A stretch of 64,000 bases of DNA from an uncultured SAR116 cluster alpha proteobacterium (GTDB taxonomy: Bacteria; Pseudomonadota; Alphaproteobacteria; Puniceispirillales; Marisalimonadaceae), in assembly GCA_902623995.1 (NCBI GenBank), contig CACNWE010000008.1, forward strand, positions 1 through 64,000, in the 5' to 3' direction. Made by a program: the position numbers and the translations under genes. The notes under the pieces are model-generated. The model was not told where the DNA came from, ran no database searches, and saw nothing but the letters and a program-made list of their open reading frames with translations. Below are positions 2-24,600 of this stretch, one piece after another. The stretch's first letter is position 1; every line of letters begins with the position of its first letter.

Positions 2-2365
2 TTCCCTCATAACAAAAGAGCACAACAAGGTTTAGCATCTTTAAACAAACCTAACCACAATAATTCCTTAAAAAGTCCCTCTCAAGACGCTATTAATCAA
101 CTAATGAGTCTCTACAACCAGGGACAACTTTCACTTGTAGTTCAGCAGGCTAAGGATCTTACAGAGCAATATCCAGAAGCATTTATAATCTGGAATATAC
201 TGGGAGCAGCACATATAGGATTAGGACAAGTTATAGAAGCATCAGAAGCTTTTAAGACGGTGACAAGATTGAACCCTAATTATATTGATGGGTTTAACAA
301 TCTTGGCATAACACTCAAAGATCAAGGTAAACTTGACGAAGCCATTGAAGCATATAATAAATGTATATCACTTAAGCCTGATTATGCTGAGGCCCATAAT
401 AATATTGGGAATGTTTTTAAAGAGCAAGGTAAGCTTGAAGAAGCCGTTGAGTCTTATAATAAAGCTATCTTATTTAAACCTGACTATGCGGAGGCTTATA
501 ACAACAAGGGGACGATCTTCCAGGACCAGGACAAACTGGATGATTCTATTGAGGCTTATAATAAATGTATATCGCTGAAACCTAATTATGCTAATGCTTA
601 TTACAATTTGGGTAATGTTCTAGGAGTTCAAGGTAAACTTGATGAGGCAATAAAAACTTATAAGAATTATATCTTACTAAATCCTAATCATGCTGAAGCT
701 TATTACAATATGGGTAATGCTTTGGAAGTTCTTAGTAAGCCTGACGATGCTATTGAAGCATATAATAAAGCAGTTTCACTTAAACCTAATTATTCAAAAG
801 CATATAACAACATGGGAACAGTTTTCCATGATCAGGGTATACTCGACAAAGCATTTCAGGCTTACAACAAAGCACTTTCCTTGAACCCTGATTATGCAAA
901 GGGTCATTTAAACTTAGGAAACGTTTTAAGAGATCAAGGTAAGATCGAAGAATCTATAAAGTCATACAATAAAGCACTCTCAATCAAACCTGATTATGAG
1001 GTGGCTAGAGCAGAGAAACTGCATCAGTTAGCTAGGATCTGTGATTGGACATCTATTGACGATGATCGAGAATTAATCCCATCAATTGGAACTTTTAAAA
1101 ACTGTATTTCTCCACTTCCAATGTTTTCCTTAGAAGATGCGCCAGAAAGTCATTATCTTCGCTCAATTTTATATGCCAAAACTATGTTTACTAAAAAGCC
1201 TATACCACTTCCAGCTAAACCATCTGAGAAACCAGAACGAATTCGTATTGGTTATTTTAGTGCAGATTTTAAAACACATGCTGTTGCCTATTTGATTGCT
1301 AAAGTTATTGAACAACATAATCGTGAGAAATTTGAAATTTTTGCGTACTCCTTTATTAGTGATTTTGATGACGAATTACAAAATCGCCTTAAAAAATCAT
1401 TTGATGTATATAAAGATGTTAGTGAAATGAGTGATGAAGAAGTTGCTCTTCTTTCAAGAAAAGATAACATCGACATTGCTATAGATTTAAATGGTTATAC
1501 TAGAAAAAATCGAACTAACATTTTTGCATATCGTGCAGCACCAATTCAAATAAACTACCTAGGTTTTCCTGGAACTATGGGTGCTGAATTCATAGATTAC
1601 ATAATAGCTGATAAATATTTAATTCCCCCCAGTAATGAAAAATACTTCATTGAAAAGAAAATATATCTTCCTCATAGCTATATGCCAACAGATAATTCCA
1701 GAGAGTTTTCTAAAAGTCTTATTTCTAGAGGTGATATGAATTTGCCAGACAATGCTTTTGTTTTCTGTTGTTTCAATAATAGTTATAAAATTACTAATAA
1801 CGAATTTGATATTTGGATGCGGTTAATCCAAAAAGTTAAAGGAAGTATTTTGTGGCTTAGTATGTCCAACAAGATATCTGCAGATAATATTATGAAAGAA
1901 GCTAAAAAAAGAAATGTAGATGCCTCTAGGCTTATTTTTGCAAATAAAGTAACCATTGACGAACACCTTTCAAGACATAAATTGGCTGATTTGTTTCTAG
2001 ATACGTTTTCTTTTAACGCCCACACAACAGCTTCAGAAGCACTTTGGGCAGGTCTACCTGTGGTAACTAAAAATGGAAAAGGATTTGCCGCAAGAGTTGC
2101 TGGTAGCTTACTTAACTCCCTAGGAGTTCCAGAGTTGATTGCAGAAAATGAAAGTGAATATGAAGCATTGATCTTAGAACTTGCCACCAACCCCTATAAG
2201 CTCAAAACGGTTAGAGAAAAGATAGCTGTGAACAGATTTTCTGAACCACTCTTTAATACCGAATTATATGTTAGACATTTAGAAACCGGTTATCAATTAG
2301 CTTATCAAAACTACTTTTCTGGAAATACCCCAAAAACAATTATTGTCCCCGCTGAAATGAACTAG
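2..2365 (+). CDS. TPR / O-GlcNAc transferase-like (SPINDLY family) protein, 5' partial
   Basis: Cytoplasmic glycosyltransferase of the OGT/SPINDLY family; these transfer a sugar from a nucleotide donor to protein Ser/Thr. The first ATG is at 104, but the frame is open all the way back to base 2 and the upstream residues read as normal protein, so the gene almost certainly starts before the window. The N-terminal half is about nine 34-residue TPR repeats with the alternating pattern YNKALSLKPDYA. The C-terminal half is the catalytic region, with SADFKTHAV, a CFNNSYKI segment and FNAHTTASEALWAGLPVVT, all typical OGT-domain blocks. The acceptor is unknown; the flagellar context suggests flagellin or another surface protein. 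It is unlike the double-OGT protein at 2787 in detail, so it is a paralogue and not a copy. Confidence 0.85.
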   Translation, partial: FPHNKRAQQGLASLNKPNHNNSLKSPSQDAINQLMSLYNQGQLSLVVQQAKDLTEQYPEAFIIWNILGAAHIGLGQVIEASEAFKTVTRLNPNYIDGFNNLGITLKDQGKLDEAIEAYNKCISLKPDYAEAHNNIGNVFKEQGKLEEAVESYNKAILFKPDYAEAYNNKGTIFQDQDKLDDSIEAYNKCISLKPNYANAYYNLGNVLGVQGKLDEAIKTYKNYILLNPNHAEAYYNMGNALEVLSKPDDAIEAYNKAVSLKPNYSKAYNNMGTVFHDQGILDKAFQAYNKALSLNPDYAKGHLNLGNVLRDQGKIEESIKSYNKALSIKPDYEVARAEKLHQLARICDWTSIDDDRELIPSIGTFKNCISPLPMFSLEDAPESHYLRSILYAKTMFTKKPIPLPAKPSEKPERIRIGYFSADFKTHAVAYLIAKVIEQHNREKFEIFAYSFISDFDDELQNRLKKSFDVYKDVSEMSDEEVALLSRKDNIDIAIDLNGYTRKNRTNIFAYRAAPIQINYLGFPGTMGAEFIDYIIADKYLIPPSNEKYFIEKKIYLPHSYMPTDNSREFSKSLISRGDMNLPDNAFVFCCFNNSYKITNNEFDIWMRLIQKVKGSILWLSMSNKISADNIMKEAKKRNVDASRLIFANKVTIDEHLSRHKLADLFLDTFSFNAHTTASEALWAGLPVVTKNGKGFAARVAGSLLNSLGVPELIAENESEYEALILELATNPYKLKTVREKIAVNRFSEPLFNTELYVRHLETGYQLAYQNYFSGNTPKTIIVPAEMN

Positions 2366-2786: not shown

Positions 2787-5700
2787 TTATTCGGATACAT
2801 CATCATTATTTATTGGCGTTTTTAAATATTTTTTCCACATATCTTTATAAGAATCCTCAACATCTCTAGCGAAAGATTGGCCATTACATAATGGAGATGA
2901 TAACATTTGTTTTCTTAATCCCTGTCTTATCTCCTTTAGATATTCAGGCCTGTTAGACATTTTACTTGCTAGAGCCACATAATCGTCAATATCTTGAGCA
3001 ATAAAATCTGTCAGCCCTATATTTGTTAAAATACTAGCACCAACACGACCTACATGACGGTCCCCTAGTAATGTAATTACTGGAACACCCATCCACAAAG
3101 CCTCACATGTTGTCGTAGCTCCATTAAAACAGAATGTATCTAAGCAGATATCTATTTTATTATAAAACTCTAAATGTTCATTCTTATCAGATACCCTATT
3201 ATGGAATTCTATTCGATCAGCAGCTATACCTTCTTCTTCAAAAAGGCCAATATAGTGCTGTCCATGAGTGTTAAGTTTTGGACTTTTTATAATAAGTTTA
3301 GAATTTGGTACAGCTTTTAAGATTTTTGCCCAAACATTGATAACTTCAAATGTCATTTTCGCCAAGTTATTAAAGCTACCAAACGTAATATAGCCTCTAC
3401 TATTTTGAGGTAAGTCAGTGTTCACATTAATATTTTCATTACCTTTGTAACACTGAAAACCGTTGGGTAACCGAAATAGTGTTTCACTATGAAAGTCATC
3501 TGCTTCTCCAACTGGATCGGCTATCATATCTGTAAAACGGTAGTCAATCGCTGATAGACCCGTTGTGTTTGGATACCCAAGCCAAGTGACTTGAATAGGA
3601 GCTGGCTTCTGAGCAAATACTAATAATCTGTTATTTGCAGTATGGCCAGCTAAATCAACTAGAATGTCAATCTTATCTTTTTTGATTAGCTTAACAACAT
3701 CAGTATCGGAAATACTAAATATAGGACGCCAATGATCTGATAAGGCCATAAGACGCCTTGTGGTACCATCAATTGGAGTATTATTATAATAGCAAAACGT
3801 TTCAACAACTGAAGCATTATGATGCTCTAAAAGTGGCTCAAAAAAATAAGATACTGAGTGACTTTTAAAGTCTCCAGAAACATAGCCAATACGTAATTTA
3901 TCTCCAGAATGTTTAAAATTTTTATAGTCTAACGGAGTCCTTATATCTAATCCACCAAATTGTTTCTCAAATTCAAGATGCTCTTCATAAACTTGTGTGA
4001 GTGACCACATCCACGAATAGTTTAAAGAGTTATTTTTACTATGATAAAAATCATTGTTGTTTTTTTGTAATGATATAGCTTTATTATGATTTAATTTGGC
4101 CTCTTCGTGTTTTCCAAGTTTAATAAGTATATTACCTAAATTATTATAAGGCTCAGCAAAGTCAGATTTCAAATTTATGGCTTGTCTTTGGATTAGTTCT
4201 GCTTCACTTAATAAACCTAGCCGTTCTAGAACATTACCTAAGTTATTATAAGCGGCTATATATTCTGGATCTATACTTAGAGCTTTTTTGTAATTTTTTT
4301 TTGCTTCTTCATAACGTCCAATTTTACATTGTGTATTACCTAGATTATTATAAATTTCTGCATCTTTAGGATCAATTTTAATAGCGAATTTATTTGCTTT
4401 AATACTATCGTTAAATTTTCCATTCCGATTATGGATGAGAGCAAGGATTTTCCATGCTAATTTGTCATTAGGTAATTGTTTAGTGATTGACAGTGCTAAT
4501 TGTTCTGCATCTTGATATTTGTCACTTTGAAAAAGTTCTATAAGTTTTTTAAATTGTAATGCTATTTCTAAATTGTTAAGTGCGATAGAAGACTTTGGAT
4601 CAAATACTAAAGCTTGTTTATAACTCGTTACGGCTTCCTTAAATCGTGAGGTATTTAAAAATAAATTTCCAAGTTTAATATGAACTAAAACATAATCAGG
4701 CTTTAATTCAATAGCTTTTATATAACTTGCCTCAGCTTTTTTTAATTGATTGAGTATTTCATAGATTTTACCAAGATTACTAAAGGCTTCTGAGTCTTCT
4801 GGATCCTTTTCTAATAAATTTTTATAGGCAATTAACGCTTCTGAAACTTTTCCTGATTTTAGTAAAACTGCGGCAAGGATATTCATAGAAAGAAGATGAT
4901 CAGGAAATTGTTTTATAATTGAAAGTGCTAATTTTTCAGCATCCTCATATCTATCACCTTTATAATATTCTACAAGTTTTCTAAATTGTATGTTTGACGG
5001 TAACATAATATCATCTACTAAAACATTTTGTTGGGATACATCATCATTATTTATTGGCGTTTTTAAATATTTTTTCCACATATCTTTATAAGAATCCTCA
5101 ACATCTCTAGCGAAAGATTGGCCATTACATAATGGAGATGATAACATTTGTTTTCTTAATCCCTGTCTTATCTCCTTTAGATATTCAGGCCTGTTAGACA
5201 TTTTACTTGCTAGAGCCACATAATCGTCAATATCTTGAGCAATAAAATCTGTCAGCCCTATATTTGTTAAAATACTAGCACCAACACGACCTACATGACG
5301 GTCCCCTAGTAATGTAATTACTGGAACACCCATCCACAAAGCCTCACATGTTGTCGTAGCTCCATTAAAACAGAATGTATCTAAGCAGATATCTATTTTA
5401 TTATAAAACTCTAAATGTTCATTCTTATCAGATACCCTATTATGGAATTCTATTCGATCAGCAGCTATACCTTCTTCTTCAAAAAGGCCAATATAGTGCT
5501 GTCCATGAGTGTTAAGTTTTGGACTTTTTATAATAAGTTTAGAATTTGGTACAGCTTTTAAGATTTTTGCCCAAACATTGATAACTTCAAATGTCATTTT
5601 CGCCAAGTTATTAAAGCTACCAAACGTAATATAGCCTCTACTATTTTGAGGTAAGTCAGTGTTCACATTAATATTTTCATTACCTTTGTAACACTGAAAA

Positions 5701-7481
5701 CCGTTGGGTAACCGAAATAGTGTTTCACTATGAAAGTCATCTGCTTCTCCAACTGGATCGGCTATCATATCTGTAAAACGGTAGTCAATCGCTGATAGAC
5801 CCGTTGTGTTTGGATACCCAAGCCAAGTGACTTGAATAGGAGCTGGCTTCTGAGCAAATACTAATAATCTGTTATTTGCAGTATGGCCAGCTAAATCAAC
5901 TAGAATGTCAATCTTATCTTTTTTGATTAGCTTAACAACATCAGTATCGGAAATACTAAATATAGGACGCCAATGATCTGATAAGGCCATAAGACGCCTT
6001 GTGGTACCATCAATTGGAGTATTATTATAATAGCAAAACGTTTCAACAACTGAAGCATTATGATGCTCTAAAAGTGGCTCAAAAAAATAAGATACTGAGT
6101 GACTTTTAAAGTCTCCAGAAACATAGCCAATACGTAATTTATCTCCAGAATGTTTAAAATTTTTATAGTCTAACGGAGTCCTTATATCTAATCCACCAAA
6201 TTGTTTCTCAAATTCAAGATGCTCTTCATAAACTTGTGTGAGTGACCACATCCACGAATAGTTTAAAGAAAACAATTTTTGATGATGATATGGATTACTC
6301 TCAGGTTCAAGTTCAACAGACTTGTTAAAGCTTTTTGCAGCATCTTTTAACTTTAAAAAACTCATCAATGTATTACCTAAGTTGCTGTAAGCTCCTGCAT
6401 AATTAGGCTTTAATTTTATTGCAGATAAGTAATTAACTTCAGCATCTGCATACTTACCAAGTCTGAATTGAACAAGTCCTAAATTGTTGTAAGCTTCCGC
6501 AAAATCAGGATTTATTTTTATTGCTTTTTTAAGTTTTTCTTCAGCTTCTTCTAAGAAAGTTAATTCTTTTTGACTAACTCCTAAGTTATTGTAAGCCTCC
6601 GCAAAATTAGGATCAATTCTAATTGTTTTATTGTAACTTTCTATTGCTTCTTTATAATTACCGTATTTATAATATATATTTCCTAAATTATTATGAGCGG
6701 CTGCAAATTCTGGTTCTAAATCTATCGCTTTTTCAATGTGGATTTTGGCTTCTTCTAGTCGATCTACTTCAATTAAAAATTCTCCAAATTTATTATGATA
6801 TTTAGATGAAGAATTTAAATTTATCAATTGTCTATAATATGCTTCGGCTTCTTTAAGTCTTCCTAGATTTTTCAACATAATAGTTAAGTTACTGAGTGTT
6901 TCAAGATCTTTTGGCTCAATATTTATAGCTATTTCAGATGCTGTTACTCCCTCTGAAATTCTGCCTGTTTCACTCATTATGACAGCAAGAGTTTTCCAAG
7001 CAAAAGGATGATTAGGAAATTGTTCGGTAATTGACAGTGCTAACTTTTCAGCTTCTTTGTATTTCTGATTTTGATAAAGTTCAAAAAGTTTTTTAAGTAA
7101 AGAATCAGATGGTGAAAGACTATTGCGTATATTACTTATTTGTTCACTGAGAAACTCAAATTTAGAACTCCAAATACCATTCTGCTTTGCTCTATCAATT
7201 ATAGATTCCGCATCTTTAAAGTTTTTCTCTTTTATAAGCGCCTCTATATAACTTAACCAAAATTTTTCAATCCTTGGGTTAACTTCAACAGCAGTTTTAA
7301 AGAAAGAAATAGCATCCTCGTGATTATTTAAAGATAATTTACAAGTTCCCAAATTATAATTAGCATCTGGGTGTTTAGGATTATTTTTTAATATTGAGCT
7401 ATAAAGCTGCTCTGCTTCTTTAAAATCACCTTTTTTTTGAAAATTTATACCTTTTTCAAGTTTTTCTGATATTGAGTTCAT
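2787..7481 (-). CDS. Giant TPR protein with two O-GlcNAc transferase-like catalytic domains
   Basis: A predicted cytoplasmic protein glycosyltransferase of 1564 residues. The order is TPR block (about 1-400), OGT-type catalytic domain (about 405-816), second TPR block (about 820-1150), and second OGT-type domain (about 1152-1563). Each catalytic domain carries GYVSGDFKSHSVSYFF, GSFNNLAKMT and FNGATTTCEALWMGVPVIT. The two catalytic domains are identical in protein, and by eye in DNA. The usual family member has one such domain and about 700-800 residues. It starts 56 bases downstream of fliD on the same strand, with no promoter of its own visible, so it is probably co-transcribed with fliD. 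This makes flagellin or another flagellar protein a reasonable acceptor (inference). A collapsed or duplicated assembly is the main alternative for the repeat. Confidence 0.85.
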   Translation of the reverse strand: MNSISEKLEKGINFQKKGDFKEAEQLYSSILKNNPKHPDANYNLGTCKLSLNNHEDAISFFKTAVEVNPRIEKFWLSYIEALIKEKNFKDAESIIDRAKQNGIWSSKFEFLSEQISNIRNSLSPSDSLLKKLFELYQNQKYKEAEKLALSITEQFPNHPFAWKTLAVIMSETGRISEGVTASEIAINIEPKDLETLSNLTIMLKNLGRLKEAEAYYRQLINLNSSSKYHNKFGEFLIEVDRLEEAKIHIEKAIDLEPEFAAAHNNLGNIYYKYGNYKEAIESYNKTIRIDPNFAEAYNNLGVSQKELTFLEEAEEKLKKAIKINPDFAEAYNNLGLVQFRLGKYADAEVNYLSAIKLKPNYAGAYSNLGNTLMSFLKLKDAAKSFNKSVELEPESNPYHHQKLFSLNYSWMWSLTQVYEEHLEFEKQFGGLDIRTPLDYKNFKHSGDKLRIGYVSGDFKSHSVSYFFEPLLEHHNASVVETFCYYNNTPIDGTTRRLMALSDHWRPIFSISDTDVVKLIKKDKIDILVDLAGHTANNRLLVFAQKPAPIQVTWLGYPNTTGLSAIDYRFTDMIADPVGEADDFHSETLFRLPNGFQCYKGNENINVNTDLPQNSRGYITFGSFNNLAKMTFEVINVWAKILKAVPNSKLIIKSPKLNTHGQHYIGLFEEEGIAADRIEFHNRVSDKNEHLEFYNKIDICLDTFCFNGATTTCEALWMGVPVITLLGDRHVGRVGASILTNIGLTDFIAQDIDDYVALASKMSNRPEYLKEIRQGLRKQMLSSPLCNGQSFARDVEDSYKDMWKKYLKTPINNDDVSQQNVLVDDIMLPSNIQFRKLVEYYKGDRYEDAEKLALSIIKQFPDHLLSMNILAAVLLKSGKVSEALIAYKNLLEKDPEDSEAFSNLGKIYEILNQLKKAEASYIKAIELKPDYVLVHIKLGNLFLNTSRFKEAVTSYKQALVFDPKSSIALNNLEIALQFKKLIELFQSDKYQDAEQLALSITKQLPNDKLAWKILALIHNRNGKFNDSIKANKFAIKIDPKDAEIYNNLGNTQCKIGRYEEAKKNYKKALSIDPEYIAAYNNLGNVLERLGLLSEAELIQRQAINLKSDFAEPYNNLGNILIKLGKHEEAKLNHNKAISLQKNNNDFYHSKNNSLNYSWMWSLTQVYEEHLEFEKQFGGLDIRTPLDYKNFKHSGDKLRIGYVSGDFKSHSVSYFFEPLLEHHNASVVETFCYYNNTPIDGTTRRLMALSDHWRPIFSISDTDVVKLIKKDKIDILVDLAGHTANNRLLVFAQKPAPIQVTWLGYPNTTGLSAIDYRFTDMIADPVGEADDFHSETLFRLPNGFQCYKGNENINVNTDLPQNSRGYITFGSFNNLAKMTFEVINVWAKILKAVPNSKLIIKSPKLNTHGQHYIGLFEEEGIAADRIEFHNRVSDKNEHLEFYNKIDICLDTFCFNGATTTCEALWMGVPVITLLGDRHVGRVGASILTNIGLTDFIAQDIDDYVALASKMSNRPEYLKEIRQGLRKQMLSSPLCNGQSFARDVEDSYKDMWKKYLKTPINNDDVSE
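2793..4028. repeat. Direct repeat copy 1 (OGT domain 2)
   Basis: This is one copy of a 1236-base direct repeat. Aligned at an offset of 2241 bases it matches 5034-6269 with no difference that I could find by eye. The offset is a multiple of three, so both copies are read in the same frame of one gene. It encodes the C-terminal catalytic domain. Confidence 0.9.
5034..6269. repeat. Direct repeat copy 2 (OGT domain 1)
   Basis: Second copy of the 1236-base repeat at 2793-4028. The match ends sharply on both sides, and the flanking TPR-coding DNA differs. This indicates a recent duplication or gene conversion limited to the catalytic domain. Confidence 0.9.
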
Positions 7482-7537: not shown

Positions 7538-10156
7538 TTAATCATCATCATTCATAGCATCTAACAAATTAGTTAAATATTCACCTGTTGACTTTAAACT
7601 AGTTACGGCTTGTTCCATACTAGTAAACTGCTGAATATATCTTTCTCTTAAAGATTTCATTTGAGCATTTAAATCTTCTAATAATGCTGACTGGTCCGTT
7701 ACTTCCTTATTAATTGTAGTTTCTCTTGTCGATAATTGCCCACTTGATGTGTTTAAAGTATCAGTTAAAAATGTAGTTAGTTTATCAATTAAACTTTGTC
7801 CGTAATACACTGTTGCATTAGCCCCAAGTCCTGAATATTTTACTTTTAAACCAGCTGCATTGCCTGAGGAAATAGTAAAGGTTTTATTAGTTATATCAGC
7901 TACCATCGCTACGCCATCTAATGTAGCAGATCCTGTTATGCCAGTAGTAGTTATCCCAGCTCCTGTTACCCCCACTGTAACTGATCCAGTCGTGTTTGAA
8001 GATGGCGTAATGGAAGATATTGTTTGAAAAGTTTTAGTACTATTTACTGTAGCATTTGCAGTAGGCCCCGTTATGACGTCTGTTTGTGCATTACCAGACA
8101 TATCTGTTCCAACGATAGTAAATGTTTTGTTACTCTCGTCACCTCCTGCGCTCACAATTGAGGGCCTTTTACCAGCTAGGTCTACAAAAGCAGATTTTGA
8201 TCCAATGTTGACTCCTGATGCAGCTGCATTAGATGATATTTGGGTTATATTTTGGAATATTTTTGTACTGGTTACACTATTTCCTGCAGTCGGTCCTGTT
8301 ATAATTTCCTCTTGTGCATTTCCATTGATATCAGTGCCAGTAATTGTAAATGCCACTGATGATAAATTATTTGAGCTTGCAATAGTTATTAATGAATTTA
8401 AATTAGTTGCACTATTAGAACTTGTTTGATCACCATCAAGAGCAAAATTTCCAGAACTACCAAGTGTTTCATTGTCAACAAGTCCGTCTGAGTCAGTAGT
8501 GGTAACAAGTGCTCCATTTATTGTTAAGGGATTGTTGGCAGTTCCAGATTGAGCTGTTCCTATTCCATCAGAATCTGATGTTCCTACAAATTTAAGGAAA
8601 CTATCCAAGTTGCTTCCAATTGAATTTATTACCATTGATGATGATGCACCAGTTGAACTAGAGGTAATTGAATAAGTACCATTAGAATGTGTTACAACAA
8701 CAGATTTTCCTGCAGCAGTTAAAGTACTATCATTGTTGATAGCAGTTTGAATTGCAGTAGCTAGTGCAGCCTCTGAAGAATAATGCGCGGCGGGAATTGT
8801 CACAGTACCAGATTGTGTTCCATCAACAGTTAATTGAACTGTATTATTTGATGCAGTTACTTCTGGTGAAGTATCACTACTTTTTAAGCCAGTGAATGCC
8901 CCTGATACATATGCTGTCATCGCAAATGCGTATGAACCAGCAGCAGGAGAGGAACTTGACGCTCCACTTACGTCTAAAAGAGTTGAAGTAGAGGAATACA
9001 TAGAGTTGAAAATAGCGTCTAACGAACTGGGATTATTTTTTAATTCTGTTTCTAATACATTAATATTTAGGCTAAGTAGTCCATTCTTTTCAGTTCTGAC
9101 ACCTAAATTTGATAGGTATACTCCATTAGCTCCAAAGCCAGATAATTGATTTGAAGTGAGCGTATTTAATCTTGAATGAATACTTTTTATAACAGGGTCA
9201 TCTGATAAATCTCCTGCTTGTCTAATTGATGAACCTCTAAAAATTTTGTCATTTAATAAAGTTCTAGCATCATTAATAGCACTTACAAAAGACTGTAAAT
9301 TTGTCTTTGCAGCATTGACATCAACTGTTCCTGAAAGTATTGATGGAGTATTGGTTCCGTTTACAATAGTGGATGAATTTAAATTAACTCTGTATCCAGA
9401 GAATAAATCATCAATTTCATTTGATGATCTTGTTAAAGAAATACCATCCACTGTAAATGAAGCATCTGTTCCAGCTACTTTTTGTTTTGATGAATTTGTA
9501 GTTGAATTATCTATACTCGCTAAACCAGAACCAGATGGACTTTCAGTAGCAGTAACTCTTATAGCATTATCTTTACCATCTCTTCCTTTTAAAACAAGAG
9601 TAAAAGTATCATCTCCAGCACCAAGCACACTAGCAGTAATTCCGTAGTTTAATGCATTAATTTTATCTTTTAATGACTCGAGCGTATCAGTTTCAAGAAC
9701 GGTTAACGATTTTGAACTTATCGTTGGACTAGCAACAAAACTTCCTGAAGACCAGTCACCTATTTCTAAAACAAGACTTCCAGCACCTACTAAAGATGTG
9801 TTAGATGCGTAATCCTCAAAAGCTAGTGTTTGTCCTTTTGCTATATTAGTAACACTAATAGATGAATTTATAGCAACTGCAACTGATGGGTCAGATATTG
9901 AAGCACTAACGGCCGTACTTGAAGAATTTACACTTAAAGACGTATTTCCAGTTAGAGTTGATAATGATGTCGATAATTTTGATAGAGAACTCTTAATTTC
10001 ACCAATTGCAGATATAGCTGTATTTTTCGCGTCAATTCGAGTTTGAATAGAATTTTCTTGAGGTGCTTTTTCTGCCTCAACTAAGCTGTCAACAATTTGA
10101 GTAATGTTTAAACCACTACCTTTTGAATTAATAGCACTTAAATAATCTACAGCCAT
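7538..10156 (-). CDS. fliD: Flagellar hook-associated protein 2 (filament cap), enlarged
   Basis: FliD forms the cap at the tip of the flagellum that folds exported flagellin into the filament. The N-terminus (GLNITQIVDSLVEAEKAP) and the C-terminus, with a coiled coil (TTINKEVTDQSALLEDLNAQ) ending in FTSMEQAVTSLKS, are typical. The length of 872 residues is well above the usual 450-700. The excess lies mainly in the middle, where two tandem modules (about residues 565-735) match modules repeated in FlgK of this window. A sigma-54 type -24/-12 site precedes it. It is followed closely by the double-OGT gene and preceded by the GDP-sugar cassette. The cap domain is exposed at the cell surface, so the added modules would face outwards (inference). 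Confidence 0.93.
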   Translation of the reverse strand: MAVDYLSAINSKGSGLNITQIVDSLVEAEKAPQENSIQTRIDAKNTAISAIGEIKSSLSKLSTSLSTLTGNTSLSVNSSSTAVSASISDPSVAVAINSSISVTNIAKGQTLAFEDYASNTSLVGAGSLVLEIGDWSSGSFVASPTISSKSLTVLETDTLESLKDKINALNYGITASVLGAGDDTFTLVLKGRDGKDNAIRVTATESPSGSGLASIDNSTTNSSKQKVAGTDASFTVDGISLTRSSNEIDDLFSGYRVNLNSSTIVNGTNTPSILSGTVDVNAAKTNLQSFVSAINDARTLLNDKIFRGSSIRQAGDLSDDPVIKSIHSRLNTLTSNQLSGFGANGVYLSNLGVRTEKNGLLSLNINVLETELKNNPSSLDAIFNSMYSSTSTLLDVSGASSSSPAAGSYAFAMTAYVSGAFTGLKSSDTSPEVTASNNTVQLTVDGTQSGTVTIPAAHYSSEAALATAIQTAINNDSTLTAAGKSVVVTHSNGTYSITSSSTGASSSMVINSIGSNLDSFLKFVGTSDSDGIGTAQSGTANNPLTINGALVTTTDSDGLVDNETLGSSGNFALDGDQTSSNSATNLNSLITIASSNNLSSVAFTITGTDINGNAQEEIITGPTAGNSVTSTKIFQNITQISSNAAASGVNIGSKSAFVDLAGKRPSIVSAGGDESNKTFTIVGTDMSGNAQTDVITGPTANATVNSTKTFQTISSITPSSNTTGSVTVGVTGAGITTTGITGSATLDGVAMVADITNKTFTISSGNAAGLKVKYSGLGANATVYYGQSLIDKLTTFLTDTLNTSSGQLSTRETTINKEVTDQSALLEDLNAQMKSLRERYIQQFTSMEQAVTSLKSTGEYLTNLLDAMNDDD
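7950..8460 (-). repeat. Type A module repeats inside fliD (2 copies)
   Basis: Two tandem units of about 80-85 residues with the pattern TFTITGTDxxGNxxTETITG, then an F-x-x-I-x-x-I segment and a closing V-x-[IV]-G. The first unit, with its lead-in SDGLVDNETLGSSG, is strikingly close to a unit in FlgK at 20585-20900. Coordinates are approximate. Confidence 0.75.
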
Positions 10157-10299: not shown

Positions 10300-11469
10300 C
10301 TAAAAATCTAATTTTTCTAAAGTATTCATTGCTTCTTTCATATTTAGGTGATGATTCCCAATAAATAAACCATTTTTATCTATCCAATCGGCATTGATTA
10401 ATTCATCCTGAAGTTCTTTATCAAAAAAATCTACTACTTTGTTATTAGCAAAATTTCCAGCTACTATCGGCCTACACTCAAAACCTTTTTTATATAAAAT
10501 ACTCATTAATTGGTCCCTATTTCTATTAGATCCAGGTTTTAGGACAATGCTAAACCCAAACCAACTACTTAAACCAATTTCCTTTTGGGTGTATATGAAA
10601 TCATGCTTTTGCATTTTTTCTAAAAACAATTTTGCATTTTCTATTCTTTGTAATAAAAATTTTGGAAATTTTTTTAATTGTATACTTCCTATTGCACCTG
10701 ACATTTCTAATGGTCTTAAATTATAACCTGGAAGTACAAAGTTAAATGATTCTCTAAATTCGTCATTTGATTTTGGTGCAACATGATTTTCTTTAGGTAA
10801 ATTTCTAGTCCAACCATGAGCTCTTAATGATAAAAGAATATGATATAACTCTTGATCATTTGTAACTACCATACCACCTTCCATAGTAGATATATGATGA
10901 GAAAAGAAAAAACTAAATGTTCCTAATAACCCAATGGTCCCTGTTTTTTTATTTTCAAATTCTGCTCCTAATGACTCACAATTATCTTCAATAAGTGATA
11001 TATCTTTATCCCCAATTATTTTTTTTATTTCTGTAAAATTATTTGGATTACCTAATAAGTTCACAGCTAAAATAACTTTTGTTTTGTTTGAAACTGCTGA
11101 TTTTAATTTTTTTAAATCATAGTTAAGTGTCTCAATATCAATATCTACAAATTTAATTTTTAAGCCATACTGGTATAAAGGGTAGTATGATGTACTCCAA
11201 GAAACAGCTGGAACAATGACTTCATCACCTCTTTTTAGTTTTTTTTTATAATCCTTCGTATAAAAAAGACTAGCTACCATTAAAAGATTTGCTGATGAAC
11301 CTGAGTTCACCATAATTGAATATTTACTTCCAATGTAATTGGAAAACTCTTCCTCAAACTTTTTGACTTTTTTACTCATTGTAAAAAATTTATCTTTAAC
11401 AACTTGTGAAATTGCTTCTATTTCTTCATGATCCCAACTGTCATACGATAATGGAAATTTATTAGACAT
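10300..11469 (-). CDS. DegT/DnrJ-fold PLP enzyme with His for Lys; probable GDP-4-keto-6-deoxymannose 3-dehydratase (ColD-like)
   Basis: A 389-residue sugar-modifying enzyme of the DegT/DnrJ/EryC1 aminotransferase fold. In true aminotransferases a lysine binds PLP in the block SFxxxKxxxxxEGG. Here the block is SFFFSHHISTMEGG, so the lysine position (about residue 191) is histidine. That substitution is the known mark of the 3-dehydratases ColD (GDP-4-keto-6-deoxymannose) and RfbH (CDP sugar). Since gmd lies in the same operon, a GDP-mannose-derived substrate is more likely, giving a 3,6-dideoxy-4-ketohexose. The start overlaps the end of the reductase gene upstream by 8 bases. A perosamine-type transaminase is the alternative, but the missing lysine argues against it. 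Confidence 0.75.
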   Translation of the reverse strand: MSNKFPLSYDSWDHEEIEAISQVVKDKFFTMSKKVKKFEEEFSNYIGSKYSIMVNSGSSANLLMVASLFYTKDYKKKLKRGDEVIVPAVSWSTSYYPLYQYGLKIKFVDIDIETLNYDLKKLKSAVSNKTKVILAVNLLGNPNNFTEIKKIIGDKDISLIEDNCESLGAEFENKKTGTIGLLGTFSFFFSHHISTMEGGMVVTNDQELYHILLSLRAHGWTRNLPKENHVAPKSNDEFRESFNFVLPGYNLRPLEMSGAIGSIQLKKFPKFLLQRIENAKLFLEKMQKHDFIYTQKEIGLSSWFGFSIVLKPGSNRNRDQLMSILYKKGFECRPIVAGNFANNKVVDFFDKELQDELINADWIDKNGLFIGNHHLNMKEAMNTLEKLDF

Positions 11470-12409
11470 TTTTATTACTTTCTAAATAATATTTAATAGT
11501 TTCATCAATACCTTTTTTTAATGAAAATTTGCTTTTCCAGCCAAATTTTTTAAGCTTTCTTGTAGAAACTAATTTTTGTTTTTGACCGATTGGTTTTGAA
11601 ATATCAAAATCGAAGGCACCTCCCCAACCAAAACTTTTTGCCACTATTTTATAATAATCTAAAACCGAATAATCTTTTCCCACACCAACATTCATGACTT
11701 CTGGCATTTCAAAAAAATTTTCAATAGAGTAATATAAACAATCAATAAAATCATTAACGTACATAAATTCTCGTCTTACAGAACCATTACCCCAGATTAT
11801 AACCTTATCTTTATTATTTAGTTTTGCGTTATGAATTTTATTGATTATGTTTGGGAGTAGATGTCCTGAATTAAGACTAAAGTCATCATATTTTCCATAA
11901 AGATTACAAGGAATTATTGTTTTATATTTTAAATCAATATTTTCTTTATTAATATAAGTACACAATTTCTGAACGAAAATTTTAGCAATTGCATAACCTT
12001 CGTTTGTTGGTTCAAGAGGACCTGACAAAATTAAATCTTCTTCAAGAGGAATTTCCATGTTTTTTGGATATACACATGAAGTACTTAAATTAATTAAATG
12101 TTTGATATTTTGTTTTTTTGCTGCCAAGACTATATTTTTGCCTATTTCTGCATTTTCTTGTAAAAAAAGCAAAGGTTCTCTGATGTTTGCTTGAATACCT
12201 CCTACTCTTCCAGCGGCATGTATAATTAAATCAATTTTATTTTTGGATATAAAGGAGTTCACATTATCAAACTCTAATAAATTTAGCTCATTTCTTGTAG
12301 GTGCTATAAGGTGATAATTTTTTGAACGGTCATTTTCAATAAAATTTCTACCTACCATACCTGAACCACCAGTTATTAGCACTTTTTTTTGTCGAAAATT
12401 AATATTCAT
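11462..12409 (-). CDS. GDP-L-fucose synthase / GDP-colitose synthase-like epimerase-reductase
   Basis: A 315-residue short-chain dehydrogenase of the Fcl/ColC family, which epimerises and reduces a GDP-4-keto-deoxysugar with NADPH. The nucleotide-binding loop ITGGSGMVGRNF is at residues 13-24. The catalytic block NLSTSCVYP is followed by YAIAK, giving the Ser/Tyr/Lys set. It sits between gmd and the ColD-like gene, so by context its product is more likely GDP-colitose or a related 3,6-dideoxyhexose than GDP-fucose. Sequence alone does not separate Fcl from ColC. It is probably translated as part of the three-gene operon. Confidence 0.8.
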   Translation of the reverse strand: MNINFRQKKVLITGGSGMVGRNFIENDRSKNYHLIAPTRNELNLLEFDNVNSFISKNKIDLIIHAAGRVGGIQANIREPLLFLQENAEIGKNIVLAAKKQNIKHLINLSTSCVYPKNMEIPLEEDLILSGPLEPTNEGYAIAKIFVQKLCTYINKENIDLKYKTIIPCNLYGKYDDFSLNSGHLLPNIINKIHNAKLNNKDKVIIWGNGSVRREFMYVNDFIDCLYYSIENFFEMPEVMNVGVGKDYSVLDYYKIVAKSFGWGGAFDFDISKPIGQKQKLVSTRKLKKFGWKSKFSLKKGIDETIKYYLESNKNV

Positions 12410-12423
12410 TGGGTTTTCTAATA

Positions 12424-13500
12424 CTAAAATGACTTCAAATCATTTAAATCACTGTCAACCATTTCTGAAACTAGTTGGTCAAATGATGTTTTGGGTTCCC
12501 AACCTAATATTGATTTTGCCTTGGAAGAATCTCCAAGCAAATTTTCAACCTCTGCTGGCCTAAAATATCTTTCGTCTACAACAACAATTGGCTTACCTAT
12601 CCATTTGACTAAGTATTTATTATTTGGCGAAACACTTGCTACAACTCCAATTTCATCTTTACCCTTTCCCGACCAATTAATTACAATGCCTAAATATTTG
12701 GCTACACTGTTAACAAATTCTTTAACTGAATATTGAAAACCTGTTGAAATTACAAAGTCGTCTGGTTTGTCATGTTGAAGAATAAGCCACTGTGCCTCTA
12801 CATAATCTTTAGCATGACCCCAATCACGTTTTGCCGAGAGATTACCTAAATATATTGGCAATTTTGATCCATGAAAAATACTTGCGAAACCTCTTGTTAT
12901 TTTACGTGTTACAAAAGTCTCACCTCTTCTAGGAGACTCATGATTAAATAAAATCCCATTGGATGCAAACATACCATAGGCTTCTCTATAATTTTTTGTA
13001 ATCCAGTGTCCATACAATTTTGCAACACCATATGGACTTCTTGGATGAAAAGGTGTTTCTTCGTTTTGTGGAGACTCCTTTACTAAACCATATAATTCAG
13101 ATGTAGAACTTTGGTAAAACTTTATTTTTTTTTCTAAACCCAAAATCTTTATGGCTTCCAAAATTCTCAATACTCCAATTGCATCTGAATTTGCTGTATA
13201 TTCTGGCTCTTCAAATGAAACAGCAACATGACTTTGTGCAGCTAAATTATATATTTCATCTGGTTTTACCTTAGAAATAATTCCAATTAAAGAGGATGTA
13301 TCTGTCATATCCCCGTGGTGCAATATTAAGTTTTGTTCACTTTCGTGAGGATCTTTAAATAAGTGATCTATCCTTGATGTATTAAATAAAGAGGCTCTTC
13401 TTTTAATTCCATGGACTTCATAATCTTTATTGATTAAAAACTCTGCTAAATAACTACCATCCTGACCAGTAATTCCAGTTATAAGTGCTTTTTTTTTCAT
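12424..13500 (-). CDS. gmd: GDP-mannose 4,6-dehydratase
   Basis: Gmd converts GDP-D-mannose to GDP-4-keto-6-deoxy-D-mannose, the branch point for GDP-fucose, GDP-perosamine and GDP-colitose. The 358 residues are full length for the family. They start with the loop [18 protein letters not shown], followed by the [14 protein letters not shown] block that binds NADP and GDP-mannose. The catalytic YGVAK follows HPRSP. It is the first gene of the gmd/reductase/ColD-like operon (15-base gap, then an overlap). A sigma-54 type site lies upstream, which ties sugar synthesis to flagellar gene expression. Confidence 0.95.
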
Positions 13501-18605: not shown

Positions 18606-21600
18606 TTAAACAACATCTATTAGAGATTGAAACATTTCCTTAGCTGTTTGCAAGATTCGTGCCGAAGCTTGGTAAGCTTGTTGAAATTCAAGTAAATGAG
18701 CTGCTTCTTCATCTAAGTTAACTCCTGCAAACTCACTTTGGCTTGCTTCTGCCGCATCAAGGGTACTAGAAGCTGAGTCCAAAGATAATTTACTTGCTTG
18801 AACGTTTGAACCTACTTTAGCAACCGTTGTATTAAAAATTTCCTGAAAATTACCTTTATTACCACCTGATTTATCTGATCCTTGAAGATTTAAAATATTA
18901 ATTATGTTTCTGTTATCTCCAAAACCATTTTTGTTACTTGAAAAATCAAAACTATTATTGACTATAGTTTCGTCAGAAAATTGAAATTTTGTGTTATTAA
19001 CTTCAAAAACTCTATTAACGTCTAGGATTCTTGATGCAATAGAATGACCAGAAATTTTATCAAAAATTTCCACTTTATTTTTATTTGTTGCATCAACTTT
19101 AATAGTTAATTCAGAGTCAAATTCATTATTTAAATTTTCACTTTCAGTAAATTGATCATATTGTGCACTTATTTTTCTTGCACCACCACCCATAACAATT
19201 GTAATCAAGTCCTCTGGTGGCATATTTGTTAAGCTTATTTTTTCTGCAACAGTGTTTTGAATTGATCCATTTGGTATCTCAACTTTTACTGGTTCTCCAG
19301 AAAATGACGTTACTTTTATTTCGTCACTATCAACTATAGCTCGTACATCTTGAGTTTTAAGACCATACACCTTGCTTGCATTAGGACTTGGATCAATCTT
19401 AAAATTAAGTTTATCAACAGTATAACTTAATGACAATCTACCTACCTTTTTTGTCCCAACTTTTACTGTTCCAGCAGAATTACTTTCAGGTACTATCGAT
19501 TTAATTTGAGTAAAAACCTTTTCTCCTGTAACAAGTACATCTTGACCTTTAGCAGTTAAAACTTCAGTTTGTGAGTTACCAAATTGATCTAAACCAGTTA
19601 TTGTGTATTTTCCTGTGTCATTTCCTGCAGGTTTAATTGTAATAACTTGTGGGTCCATAACTACAGAAGTTGCTTGTACACCAACCTTAATAGTGCTTGT
19701 TGTATTGTTGGCTACGGATATAGATGAAACTTCACTAAAAGAAATTGTGCCAGTTGCAGTCGAATTGTTTGCTCCTGAAATAGTTTCTGTCTTAAACACA
19801 CCATCAGTATCAATACCTGAAATTACAAAAGAATTATTACTTTCATCTCCATTACAAAATATTGTTATTTTACCATTTAAAGCTTTTGAGTTTTTTAAGG
19901 CACCATCGAGAGACAAATTACCTGCTGTAGCTGATTTACTTGTAAATAATCCATCAACATCAGTTGTTGATAAAATACCGTCAGTAATTATACCAACTCC
20001 TGCTGACATTGTATCGTTATATATAGAATCTTCAAGAGTTATGCCTGACGATTCATTCCATGATAAAGTGATTGAAGTGGGTGGTGAACTACTAAGTGCA
20101 GATCCATCACTATTGAAAAACACCGGATCATCACTACTATTAAATCTTATAGTATAATCTTTTTTAACTTCATTTTCTGTTACTTCTATCCCAATAAGAG
20201 GACTTGTAGTAGTTGGTTGAACAACAAAATTTCCAAGCATTGTTGTTGTACCTTCTTTTAAACCAAATGTTTCAGCATTGGCGGTATTTGCAGTGTTGGT
20301 AACTAATTTAAATTGAGCACCTTCGATTGTTCCTTCGGCAGTAGCTATAAGTTCATATCCTGGTGCAGTCCCAATTTCTATATTACCTAGGGTATTTGAT
20401 GCTGGGGTAATTGAGCTGACAGTTTTAAATAAACCTAATGATACTACTGTTTTTCCAGAGTTAGGACCAGAAATAGTTTCAGTTTTACTTAATCCGTCTG
20501 TTCCTATACCAACTATTGTAAAAGAATTATCGCTTTCATTACTTGTTGAAGTTATCGATATCCTTGTACCTAAGGATGAACCAAAAGCAGGTTCAGTTCC
20601 AACATTAATTCCTGTTGCCGCGTCATCAGAAGAAATATTTGTAATTTCTGTAAATAACTTAGTACCCTTAACTGTATTATTATTTACACCTGTAATAGTT
20701 TCTGTTTGGTCATTGCCGTCTAAATCTTTGCCAGTTATAGTAAAAGTAACAGATGCATTATCAGATGTGCTTGAGATACTTACTGTGGATTTCAAATTAG
20801 TGGCTGATCCAGAGCTTGTTTGAGCTCCATCAAGCGTAAAAACACCTGAACTTCCAATTGTTTCATTATCAACAAGACCATCACTATCTGATGATACTGA
20901 ATTTAAACCATTTATAATTAATTCTGTTGATGCTGTCCCAGTTTGGCTCGTAGCAATTAAATTTGGTATATTTTCTGATGTACCATTAAATCGTGCTTTA
21001 ATTCTATTTGTTTCAGGACCCTCAACAAGCAGTTCTCCAGAAGCCATTTTAAGAGTATAGACTTGTCCTTCAAAACTTAAATCTACTGATTGTCCATCTA
21101 TAGGTAAGGCGTTTATAACTTTACTTTTTATTTGAACAGTTGGAGTTTCAGATCTCAATGATGTAAGTAGCGCCGTAGATATTTCTTTTTGGGTATCTAT
21201 ATTTAATGCATTTGCATCAATTGTAGTATTCCAATTTCCATCAGCTGCTTCTGTACCTATCCGTATTTTACCATTATAGGAAGTTCCCGACGCATTTATG
21301 GACGTCACTGTTTTAAAAATGTTAGAACTAGTAACTATACCACCATTAGATCCAGTAATGGGTTCTGTTATAACCTTATTGTTTAAATCCGTACCAACAA
21401 TAGTAAAAGTTGTACCACTTGTATCCTCTTGACTCTTAATTTTAATTCTAGCTCCAAGATAGTTGGCTGTTGATAAGACACCATTCATTTCAATTGGATT
21501 ACCAGATGTAAAAGATGTTAATTGAACTAAACTATCATCATCATTTATATCATTATGACCAACTGTTCCAATATTTATATTACCACCCGGTCTTACAGAA

Positions 21601-24600
21601 GAACTAATAGAACTTATGGTAGTAAATTTTGTAGAGCCAACAGCAGTGCCATTATTTACACCACTTATGGTTTCAGTGATAATATTACCGCTTGAATCTT
21701 TACCTGTGACAGTAAATATATTTCCCGTCGCCCCGGCCCCGGTACTGCTCTCATTAGCCGTGCAATATATAGTAACAACAGCATTTAAATTATTAGCATC
21801 TTTTAATTCTCCATCAAGTGTAATAGTTCCCGAAGAACTAGGTCTATTTGACGAGTACAAGCTATCATCATCACTCACGAATAATTTGTAATCTTTTTGA
21901 TTTATGTCAATTCCATATTTAGACAAGCCAACAACAGCCTTTTTACCGTCAGGAGATCCAAGGCTATTATCTAAATCATCAAATATTTCAGGTTTTATAG
22001 TAACAACTTCCCCGGTTTTGTTTCTATTTACGTTCACATAGCCATTTGTCAGAGCATCTTTTATCGCTACATTTGAAACCCCTGAATTTATTTGTGTTGT
22101 AAAAGTTTCACTTGATGTAAATTTTAGTTCACCTTTAATATTGGCCGAACTTTTCTTTGAATTACTTACATCTATTAATAGTCTTGAGTTTCTTTGTGAG
22201 TCATTTTCACTTAATTTTTCAAAATCTTTTCCAAACACCTCCAGAAAAAAGTCAGATGGAGCTGTGATGTTTTTTAAATTAATGTCGTATCCATCCTTAG
22301 ACTCAATGATTATTTTCTTAAAATCTCCAGTAACTACAGCTAATAAACCTGTCTGAGAAGAATACTCATTAATTCTTTTTGCAAGTGCTGAGATGTCGCT
22401 TGCATCTATACTTGCATTTATTGAGACTGCTTCTGAATTTTTTCCTTTTAAATCAAATGTTATAGAACCACTAACTCCATCATTAAAAGGACCAAGCAAA
22501 ACTTTTGTATTCGCTGATACATTTACCCCAGTACCCGCTAACTCTGTGTTTAATTTATTTGCTAAATAGTAGGCACTAGTACCCACAGGTACATTTGTAG
22601 TTTTTTCTATGTTGTTATTATTAATGACTTTAAGAGAATATCCAATCGCTTCTGTCCCGATAGTCACCTTACCAGCTGAATCACCATCTATACTTATATT
22701 TCTAACTTTACTAAAAACTTTACTACCAACAACAGTAGTAGCATTACCACCAGGAATAGTTTCAGTTTGATATAACCCATCTAAGTCGTAACCTGTAACA
22801 GTAAATGTTCTTCCTGATTCATCTTTCTCACATGCAATTGAAATATATGAATTAAGTTCTTTTGAATGTATTTTTGTTCCATCAAGTGTTATTATTCCAG
22901 AGGAAAAATTTTTTATTGAAGCGCCATTTGCGTGCGCTGTTGCAGTAGACGTAAGTGTATTTACTGTTGTTCCCCTAGTTACACCAGTAAAAGATGTAGC
23001 TGTGATACCAGTATAAGTCACATATTCTGGTCCAATTAATAATGTACCAGCTTCAGGAAAACCAGTTGTACTTGTGACATTAAAGGTTGTAGCCGTTGGG
23101 TCTATTGCTTGAGAAATGCCAGTATTTCTATCATGTTTTGCAGCTGTTGTACTACTTGTTGCTCTTGTTACCCCATTAAAAGTTGTTCCTGTCTTACTTG
23201 TGTATGTAAAAAGCTCGTCACCAATTTTAATAGCACCAACAGAGTCAAATGCTGAAGTGTTTTCTACAGTTATTGTTCCTGAGCCAGACATGGTGTCACC
23301 ACTTCCGATAACTAAAAAAACATCAACGCCATGTGCATGATCTGCAGCAGTACTACCTTCTTTAGCCCTGGTTACACCAGTTAGATTATTTCCACTTACA
23401 CCTGTATATGTGAAATATTCTGAACCAATTTTAATTGTTCCTCCGGTGCTAGGAAAACTTGTAGCATTATCAAGAGGTATTTGGGTAACAGCGCTAGTAC
23501 CTAATGTTCCACCAGAGTTGTTGTAAGTTGATTCTGCACCTCTTACTGTGGTTGCAGCAGTATAATTTAATGATGTTTCTGTTAGTGTAGTTTCAATCAA
23601 CGATAGAGTCTTGGAAGTTAACAAGCCATCCATATCTGTTTCTTGTTTATTATAACTAAGGTTTGATCCAAAACTGCTTGTAAAATCACCCTCAGCTGTT
23701 TTTCTATTTGAGTTAATCCCTCTATAATTATTATTTAAATAATCATTTCTATATTCAGCACTTTCAAAAAACCCATTTTCAGCTTTTATTAATGAAGCTA
23801 TTTGAGTTGCGTTAAGTGAAGTGCCAGACACGTGTCGTCCATCCCTGGTAAAAACTTGTAAGTTACTTGCAGCAGCTTCATCTGTTGTCAAATTTGAAAT
23901 AGATGGGCTAAAGGAATTACCTCTGGATAAAATAGAAGAACTCGAAATATCATATGAAGAAGAGGAAATGGTAAGATAGCCATTTGATCCAGTGGCAAAC
24001 AAACCTAATTTTCTAAAATCATGTTGACTTTTTCCATCTAACATCAAACCAGAGTTAAGTAGATTAGCAAATTCTTTTACGGTTTTAATACCATCTCCGG
24101 GGTCTGTAGCTGCTGAATTTATTATAATTTCTCTATTATCAGTATCATCACTAAGTTTAATATTGAAGGATGAAAATCCCTTAATATCTGCATCAGAAAT
24201 AGTAAAAGTCGCAGATGATTGATTTCTTAGTGAATTTAAATTTATTGATTTAGTAGATGAAGGGATTGTTATTATTGGACCGTCTTTTAAAAAAGATGTA
24301 GCAACTAATGGATTTGTACTAGAGGTAAAAACTTTATTGATACTCGGTGGGTGATCTATTTCAGTTTGAGTTGTTGAACCTATAATGTTTAATTCAACAT
24401 TCCCAACATTAGCGGCATTTTTTGAAATTAAACTTTTTGAAGCAGCTGCAAAATCTTCAGGATTTTGAAGATGAAATTTCATAGCACCAGCTTTTGTTAA
24501 CGTTGGTGAAATTTGAAAACCATCACCATCTTTTGGCTGTCCAATTATTTCAATTTGATATCCTTCAAAATTAATTTTATTTCCTGTTGCTGTAGATATA

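Follow-up and report, generated by a model that had tools for sequence, protein, structure and literature searches.

A SAR116 cluster genome encodes a two-armed GT41 protein with an identical duplicated catalytic domain beside the flagellar cap gene

The stretch of 64,000 nucleotides analysed here (the window) comprises positions 1-64000 of contig C8 in a 2.08-Mb genome of 48 contigs, and the nearest relatives found for it are SAR116 cluster genomes. Close to its start, a single open reading frame encodes a protein of two TPR arms and two catalytic domains (CATs), arranged as TPR(404)-CAT(412)-TPR(335)-CAT(412) (Table 1). Pfam assigned Glyco_transf_41 (PF13844) far above its curated cut-off of 25 bits together with many TPR families, and two Glyco_transf_41 domains were found within the one chain. 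Thus, the original prediction of a glycosyltransferase domain coded twice in frame is borne out. NCBIfam reported mostly TPR families for this protein and offered no name for the enzyme itself. A phage origin was dismissed, as the double gene had no relatives among phages or viral contigs.

Table 1 Features of the double-gene locus in the window.
Feature	Coordinates	Strand	Evidence
Separate TPR-GT41 protein, O-GlcNAc-transferase type, convergent with double gene	104..2365	+	human OGT 545 bits, SPY 361; residues S/R/F/H
Double TPR-GT41 protein, 1564 aa	2787..7481	-	ORF; PF13844 449 bits; TPR families (Pfam)
CAT2, copy 2 of 1236-bp identical block	2793..4028	-	ends 3 bp short of stop codon
Linker + TPR arm 2, residues 817-1151	4029..5033	-	L011 arm 2 matches its second part best, with 152-153 bits, next 132-134
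CAT1, copy 1 of 1236-bp identical block	5034..6269	-	exact repeat
TPR arm 1, residues 1-404	6270..7481	-	reciprocal best of L011 arm 1 (280 bits, next 201)
FliD, filament cap protein	7538..10156	-	FliD_N + FliD_C (Pfam); immediately upstream of double gene, same direction
ColD-like GDP-4-keto-6-deoxymannose 3-dehydratase	10300..11469	-	ColD structures 505-511 bits, next family 171; His replaces PLP lysine
GDP-fucose-synthase-like epimerase/reductase (ColC-like by context)	11462..12409	-	NF047922 290.6 bits, below 500 cut-off
GDP-mannose 4,6-dehydratase (gmd)	12424..13500	-	TIGR01472 559.9 bits, cut-off 415

Several flagellar proteins of the window are very long, i.e., FliD (872 aa) and FlgK (18606-25730, 2374 aa), and a hook-type protein (29521-34185) has 1554 aa. 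FliD of relatives matches the FlgK of the window at ~50% over ~200 aa, and inserted domains seem to be common to the flagellar proteins. On the other side of the double gene, the convergent gene is of the human OGT type while the double gene is of the SPINDLY (SPY) type described below, suggesting that two donor types may act at the locus.

The two CAT copies are identical over 1236 bp with no difference, as had been noticed by eye, and lie 2241 bp (747 codons) apart, which keeps them in frame. At the 5' edge of the block, identity between the copies rises at once from 13-14/30 just upstream to 30/30, and at both edges it falls off to background. Across the whole genome exactly two copies of the block exist, and none elsewhere. 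The TPR arms preceding the copies, which had been described as different, indeed share only 33% of their residues by BLAST (36.6% when aligned globally) and about 56% of their nucleotides. Chance as the source of this repeat is excluded.

The same architecture was sought in relatives and is present at locus L011 of SAR116 AG-335-B03 (contig C27 of genome G031, 66% complete), which encodes a double protein of 1455 aa with its own near-identical pair of CATs. Its copies show one difference across 1247 bp, located ~34 bp from the tract edge, and its CAT is 69% identical in amino acids to that of the window. The tract begins at 'SLNYS' in the window and ~18 aa farther upstream in L011. Arm 1 of the window (W1) and arm 1 of L011 (S1) match end to end and are reciprocal best, and the second part of window arm 2 (W2) aligns ungapped with L011 arm 2 (S2) (scores in Table 1). 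As TPR arms are repetitive, this orthology rests on bit-score margins, with a margin of 3 bits only for S1_pre against W1; over its full length, W2 gives better scores with L012 and S1 than with S2, which is shorter. Some TPR modules appear shuffled between arms, and we therefore read arm orthology as a margin and not as proof.

To place the catalytic domain, we compared it with solved structures. By sequence score the Arabidopsis protein O-fucosyltransferase SPINDLY (PMC9715652, PMC10027727) is closest with 333 bits, ahead of TtOGT from Thermobaculum (263), human OGT (200) and Xanthomonas OGT (117), the three OGTs sharing the GT41 fold and the TPR-CAT order with the window protein. Modelled with AlphaFold2 (15 rows; mean pLDDT 81), residues 365-1564 fold into a TPR superhelix and two GT-B domains, with low confidence for a linker at model residues 444-462. 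Fold comparison likewise put SPY first (SPY Z 43-46, TtOGT 43, XcOGT 37, human OGT ~31), the best match being SPY with Z 46.0 over 721 residues at an rmsd of 7.7; the SPY GDP-fucose complex superposes on the model with Z 42.8 and 2.7 Å over 574 residues.

A closer inspection of the active site reveals mixed signature residues. Both CAT copies keep H495, K665, K689, H728, T748 and E752 (SPY numbering), and S496 and V497 are retained as well. The layout expected of GT41, a TPR superhelix followed by a GT-B domain with the essential lysine (K665 in SPY, K842 in OGT), is thus present. In SPY, K689 recognises the guanosine, K665 keeps the pyrophosphate in place, and O2/O3 of the fucose are bound by Y744 (PMC10027727). 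The window protein keeps the guanosine-reading Lys of the SPY-like clan, but in place of its Ala731 and Tyr744 it carries Phe at both positions, and Thr747 of SPY is replaced by Ala; L011 has Leu/Phe at 731/744. Phe at 731/744 matches an 'intermediate' GT41 group (PMC10027727). At the positions that mark the OGT/SEC-like clan (Leu866/Arg904/Cys917, human numbering), the window protein has Lys, Phe and Phe, and thus lacks the Arg904 that lies on the uridine side in human OGT. SPINDLY further differs in lacking a second catalytic domain per chain and a bacterial flagellar locus. Judging from sequence and the predicted fold, the CAT is a GT41 enzyme nearest to SPY. Of the earlier 'OGT-type' label, the family stands while the O-GlcNAc type does not, since the domain is nearer to SPINDLY and the residues that it carries favour a GDP-sugar. 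Given the mixed residues, naming the enzyme either a protein O-fucosyltransferase or an O-GlcNAc transferase is unwarranted.

Candidate donor genes stand upstream, near the flagellar cap gene. Together, gmd, a GDP-fucose-synthase-like enzyme and ColD make up the GDP-L-colitose pathway, and the cluster at 10300-13500 suggests GDP-colitose synthesis beside FliD with a possible link to Phe744/Ala747. Within the genus, ColD occurs in G000, G013, G019 and G016. The first three also encode SPY-like enzymes, all with Ala747, whereas G016 gave no match to the CAT query. Nine genus genomes without ColD lack Ala747, having Thr or Val in those aligned (G015 and G032, themselves unaligned, were counted via their close relatives G006 and G021), and carry gmd and an ordinary Fcl, 36-39% identical to the fucose-synthase-like protein of the window. 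The association of ColD with Ala747 within the genus yields a Fisher P of 0.014 among related genomes, uncorrected for kinship.

A GDP-sugar is thus the likely donor as judged from these residues, and colitose is a hint, because the 744/747 rule is not clean outside the genus: G256 has a Y/T enzyme near ColD and G191 an F/S enzyme beside ColD. A broad 'donor code' outside SAR116 was therefore given up and kept as a hint only. We see an even chance that, instead of a GDP-3,6-dideoxyhexose such as colitose, the enzyme uses ordinary GDP-fucose or a UDP-sugar. The changes Y744F and T747A fit other sugars too, and GDP-colitose might serve the O-antigen. ApHMW1C, which uses UDP-glucose, has Phe at the 744 position (PMC9715652), and this counts for a donor other than colitose. 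So does G031, where the F/A residues including Ala747 occur but neither ColD nor gmd was found, and so does the Y/T enzyme of G256; the ColD search likewise returned nothing in G054 and G396, G031 and G054 being incomplete. A UDP-sugar is opposed by the retained guanine-reading K689, and the distribution of Ala747 within the genus speaks for colitose. A literature search combining colitose and flagellin gave no title or abstract with either term.

The flagellar setting points to the acceptor. In the window, FliD is the gene directly upstream of the double gene. The L011 double gene has FliD ~3 kb upstream, beyond two intervening genes, and two flagellins on its downstream side. Just before the L011 double gene, a weak PseF-like cytidylyltransferase was seen (4837-5643, 59 bits, below cut-off). 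In the window genome the three flagellins are found on a different contig, C10, a point against the flagellin link; as C10 begins only ~200 bp ahead of flagellin A, their place is probably past the end of the window contig. In G013 and G019, separate single-CAT transferases of the same group lie among the flagellin genes. At L047:7784-17861, genes for SPY-type transferases and for flagellins take turns, with one transferase per flagellin.

A related system is FlmG of Caulobacter crescentus, also a cytoplasmic alphaproteobacterial protein with a TPR arm and a GT-B domain, whose TPR part binds flagellins and is needed for their glycosylation, while its GT part needs the TPR part (PMC7591256). 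At 596 aa, FlmG carries a single arm and a single GT domain and uses pseudaminic acid, whereas the window protein has two arms and two CATs. The window protein shares the N-terminal TPR part, the C-terminal GT part and the flagellar locus, a likeness in domain order and locus; Caulobacter, taken as a control, matches PF13844. Our literature search found nothing on SAR116 flagellin glycosylation, nor anything joining gene conversion, glycosyltransferase, flagellin glycosylation and 'duplicated'.

It is plausible that the two arms serve two acceptors, because single-CAT genes interleave with flagellins in G013 and G019 and each double-OGT genome has 2-3 flagellins. A different purpose, which we regard as possible though doubtful, would be gene dosage or expression balance, with two CATs simply providing more activity or both arms working on one large acceptor and no distinct acceptors involved. 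Flagellin A is long (in L011, 1026 aa with 24% Ser/Thr), and one such acceptor could occupy two arms. Dosage sits poorly with the strong divergence of the arms and with the single-CAT relatives beside flagellins. As for the processive transfer once suggested for this chain, nothing in our analysis speaks for it.

Chains with several CATs are not confined to SAR116. Six other alphaproteobacterial genomes (G396, G428, G505, G261, G318 and G262) carry 2-3 CATs with TPRs in one open frame as in the window. Unlike in the window, these CATs have diverged, being 48-75% identical in amino acids to each other with longest exact matches of 20-65 nt (measured in G428, G505, G318 and G262), and homogenisation is absent in the multi-CAT chains found here in other Alphaproteobacteria. 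In the genus of G428 and G505, orthologous CATs are 76-79% identical while the first two CATs within a chain share ~69%; as orthologues exceed the in-chain pair, these CATs evolve independently, a pattern opposite to that in SAR116. At L066:7086-15633, in another alphaproteobacterium, a three-CAT chain (2012-aa frame) is followed by two single-CAT genes in tandem. One single-CAT homologue (L012:7038-9206), on a contig that bears the label Candidatus Pelagibacter RIS_SAG_65, is 64% identical to the window CAT and closer to it than most SAR116 ones, reflecting either transfer or a mislabelled contig. The double architecture as such is therefore not unique; what is remarkable is the homogenisation of the catalytic domain only, in two species.

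Four-fold sites make this contrast explicit. Between the CAT copies 0/153 such sites differ in the window and 1/151 in L011, against 57/103 between window and L011. If both CATs were as old as the split, so few differences within a genome would have a binomial P of ~1e-51 or less. In two lineages, the paralogues thus resemble each other more than they resemble their orthologues, while the flanks are orthologous by bit-score margins, which is the pattern of concerted evolution. Most simply, the double gene is ancestral and intragenic gene conversion homogenised its CATs separately per lineage, and the original proposal of conversion acting on the catalytic part is well supported by L011 with its diverged CAT, its own near-identical pair and its reciprocal-best arms.

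Near-identical pairs within genomes and divergence between them would likewise arise if, in each lineage, a CAT had recently been duplicated into, or inside, a TPR-rich protein that was already there, and the seemingly shuffled TPR modules show that the locus does rearrange. This route dispenses with ongoing conversion, but it requires the same architecture to have formed twice, at the same FliD-linked place and with arms that are reciprocal best on both sides, and we consider it unlikely. Assembly has to be weighed as well. In short-read assembly, a tandem repeat longer than the insert forms a graph loop, the topology of which sets the layout, and both copies are printed from one node. An exact repeat of >1 kb with a loop is the expected output of such a graph, and the only difference in L011 adjoins the tract edge. 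If the data are short-read, a few real differences could be hidden in either assembly by the tandem U1-R-U2-R-U3 layout, 'identical' may mean 'alike enough for merging', and exact identity is possibly overstated. We find it somewhat unlikely that the copies of a real double structure are up to a few per cent apart and were collapsed into one node, or that there are more middle units than printed. An assembler would keep apart copies as diverged as the arms or as the CATs in other multi-CAT genes, and near-identity would therefore still hold; since two species also show the pattern, the finding stands. A misassembly chimera, an unlikely source of the double gene, was rejected as a full explanation because L011 carries the same gene.

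Taken together, we consider it probable that the product of the double gene is an FlmG-like O-glycosyltransferase that acts on flagellin in the cytoplasm, with two arms for substrates, a GDP-deoxysugar donor and CATs homogenised by conversion. Each TPR superhelix would hold a flagellin-type acceptor and offer its Ser/Thr to the next GT-B domain, and the two GT-B domains would catalyse one and the same transfer, the donor most likely being a GDP-6-deoxyhexose supplied by the genes nearby. The double gene may have been born by fusion or duplication prior to the split of the two SAR116 lineages, after which the arms would have drifted apart. The CATs form long direct repeats, and RecA-type recombination between them may repeatedly overwrite one CAT with the other, and the arms, at their DNA identity, would be too diverged for conversion to spread into them. 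A bolder version, which we hold to be quite improbable, is a two-armed flagellin colitosyl-type transferase using GDP-colitose, a bacterial SPINDLY counterpart in which the pocket for the sugar is altered; its CAT repeats would at once keep the two sites alike and allow loss or gain of 747-codon arm-CAT units, leading to heritable changes of flagellar sugars.

Few bacterial SPINDLY-like enzymes have been characterised (PMC10027727), and the residue rule at 744/747 is testable for the sugar that such enzymes use. The locus offers a natural case in which catalysis is constant while substrate recognition diverges within one chain, making the role of the TPR arm in acceptor choice directly testable.
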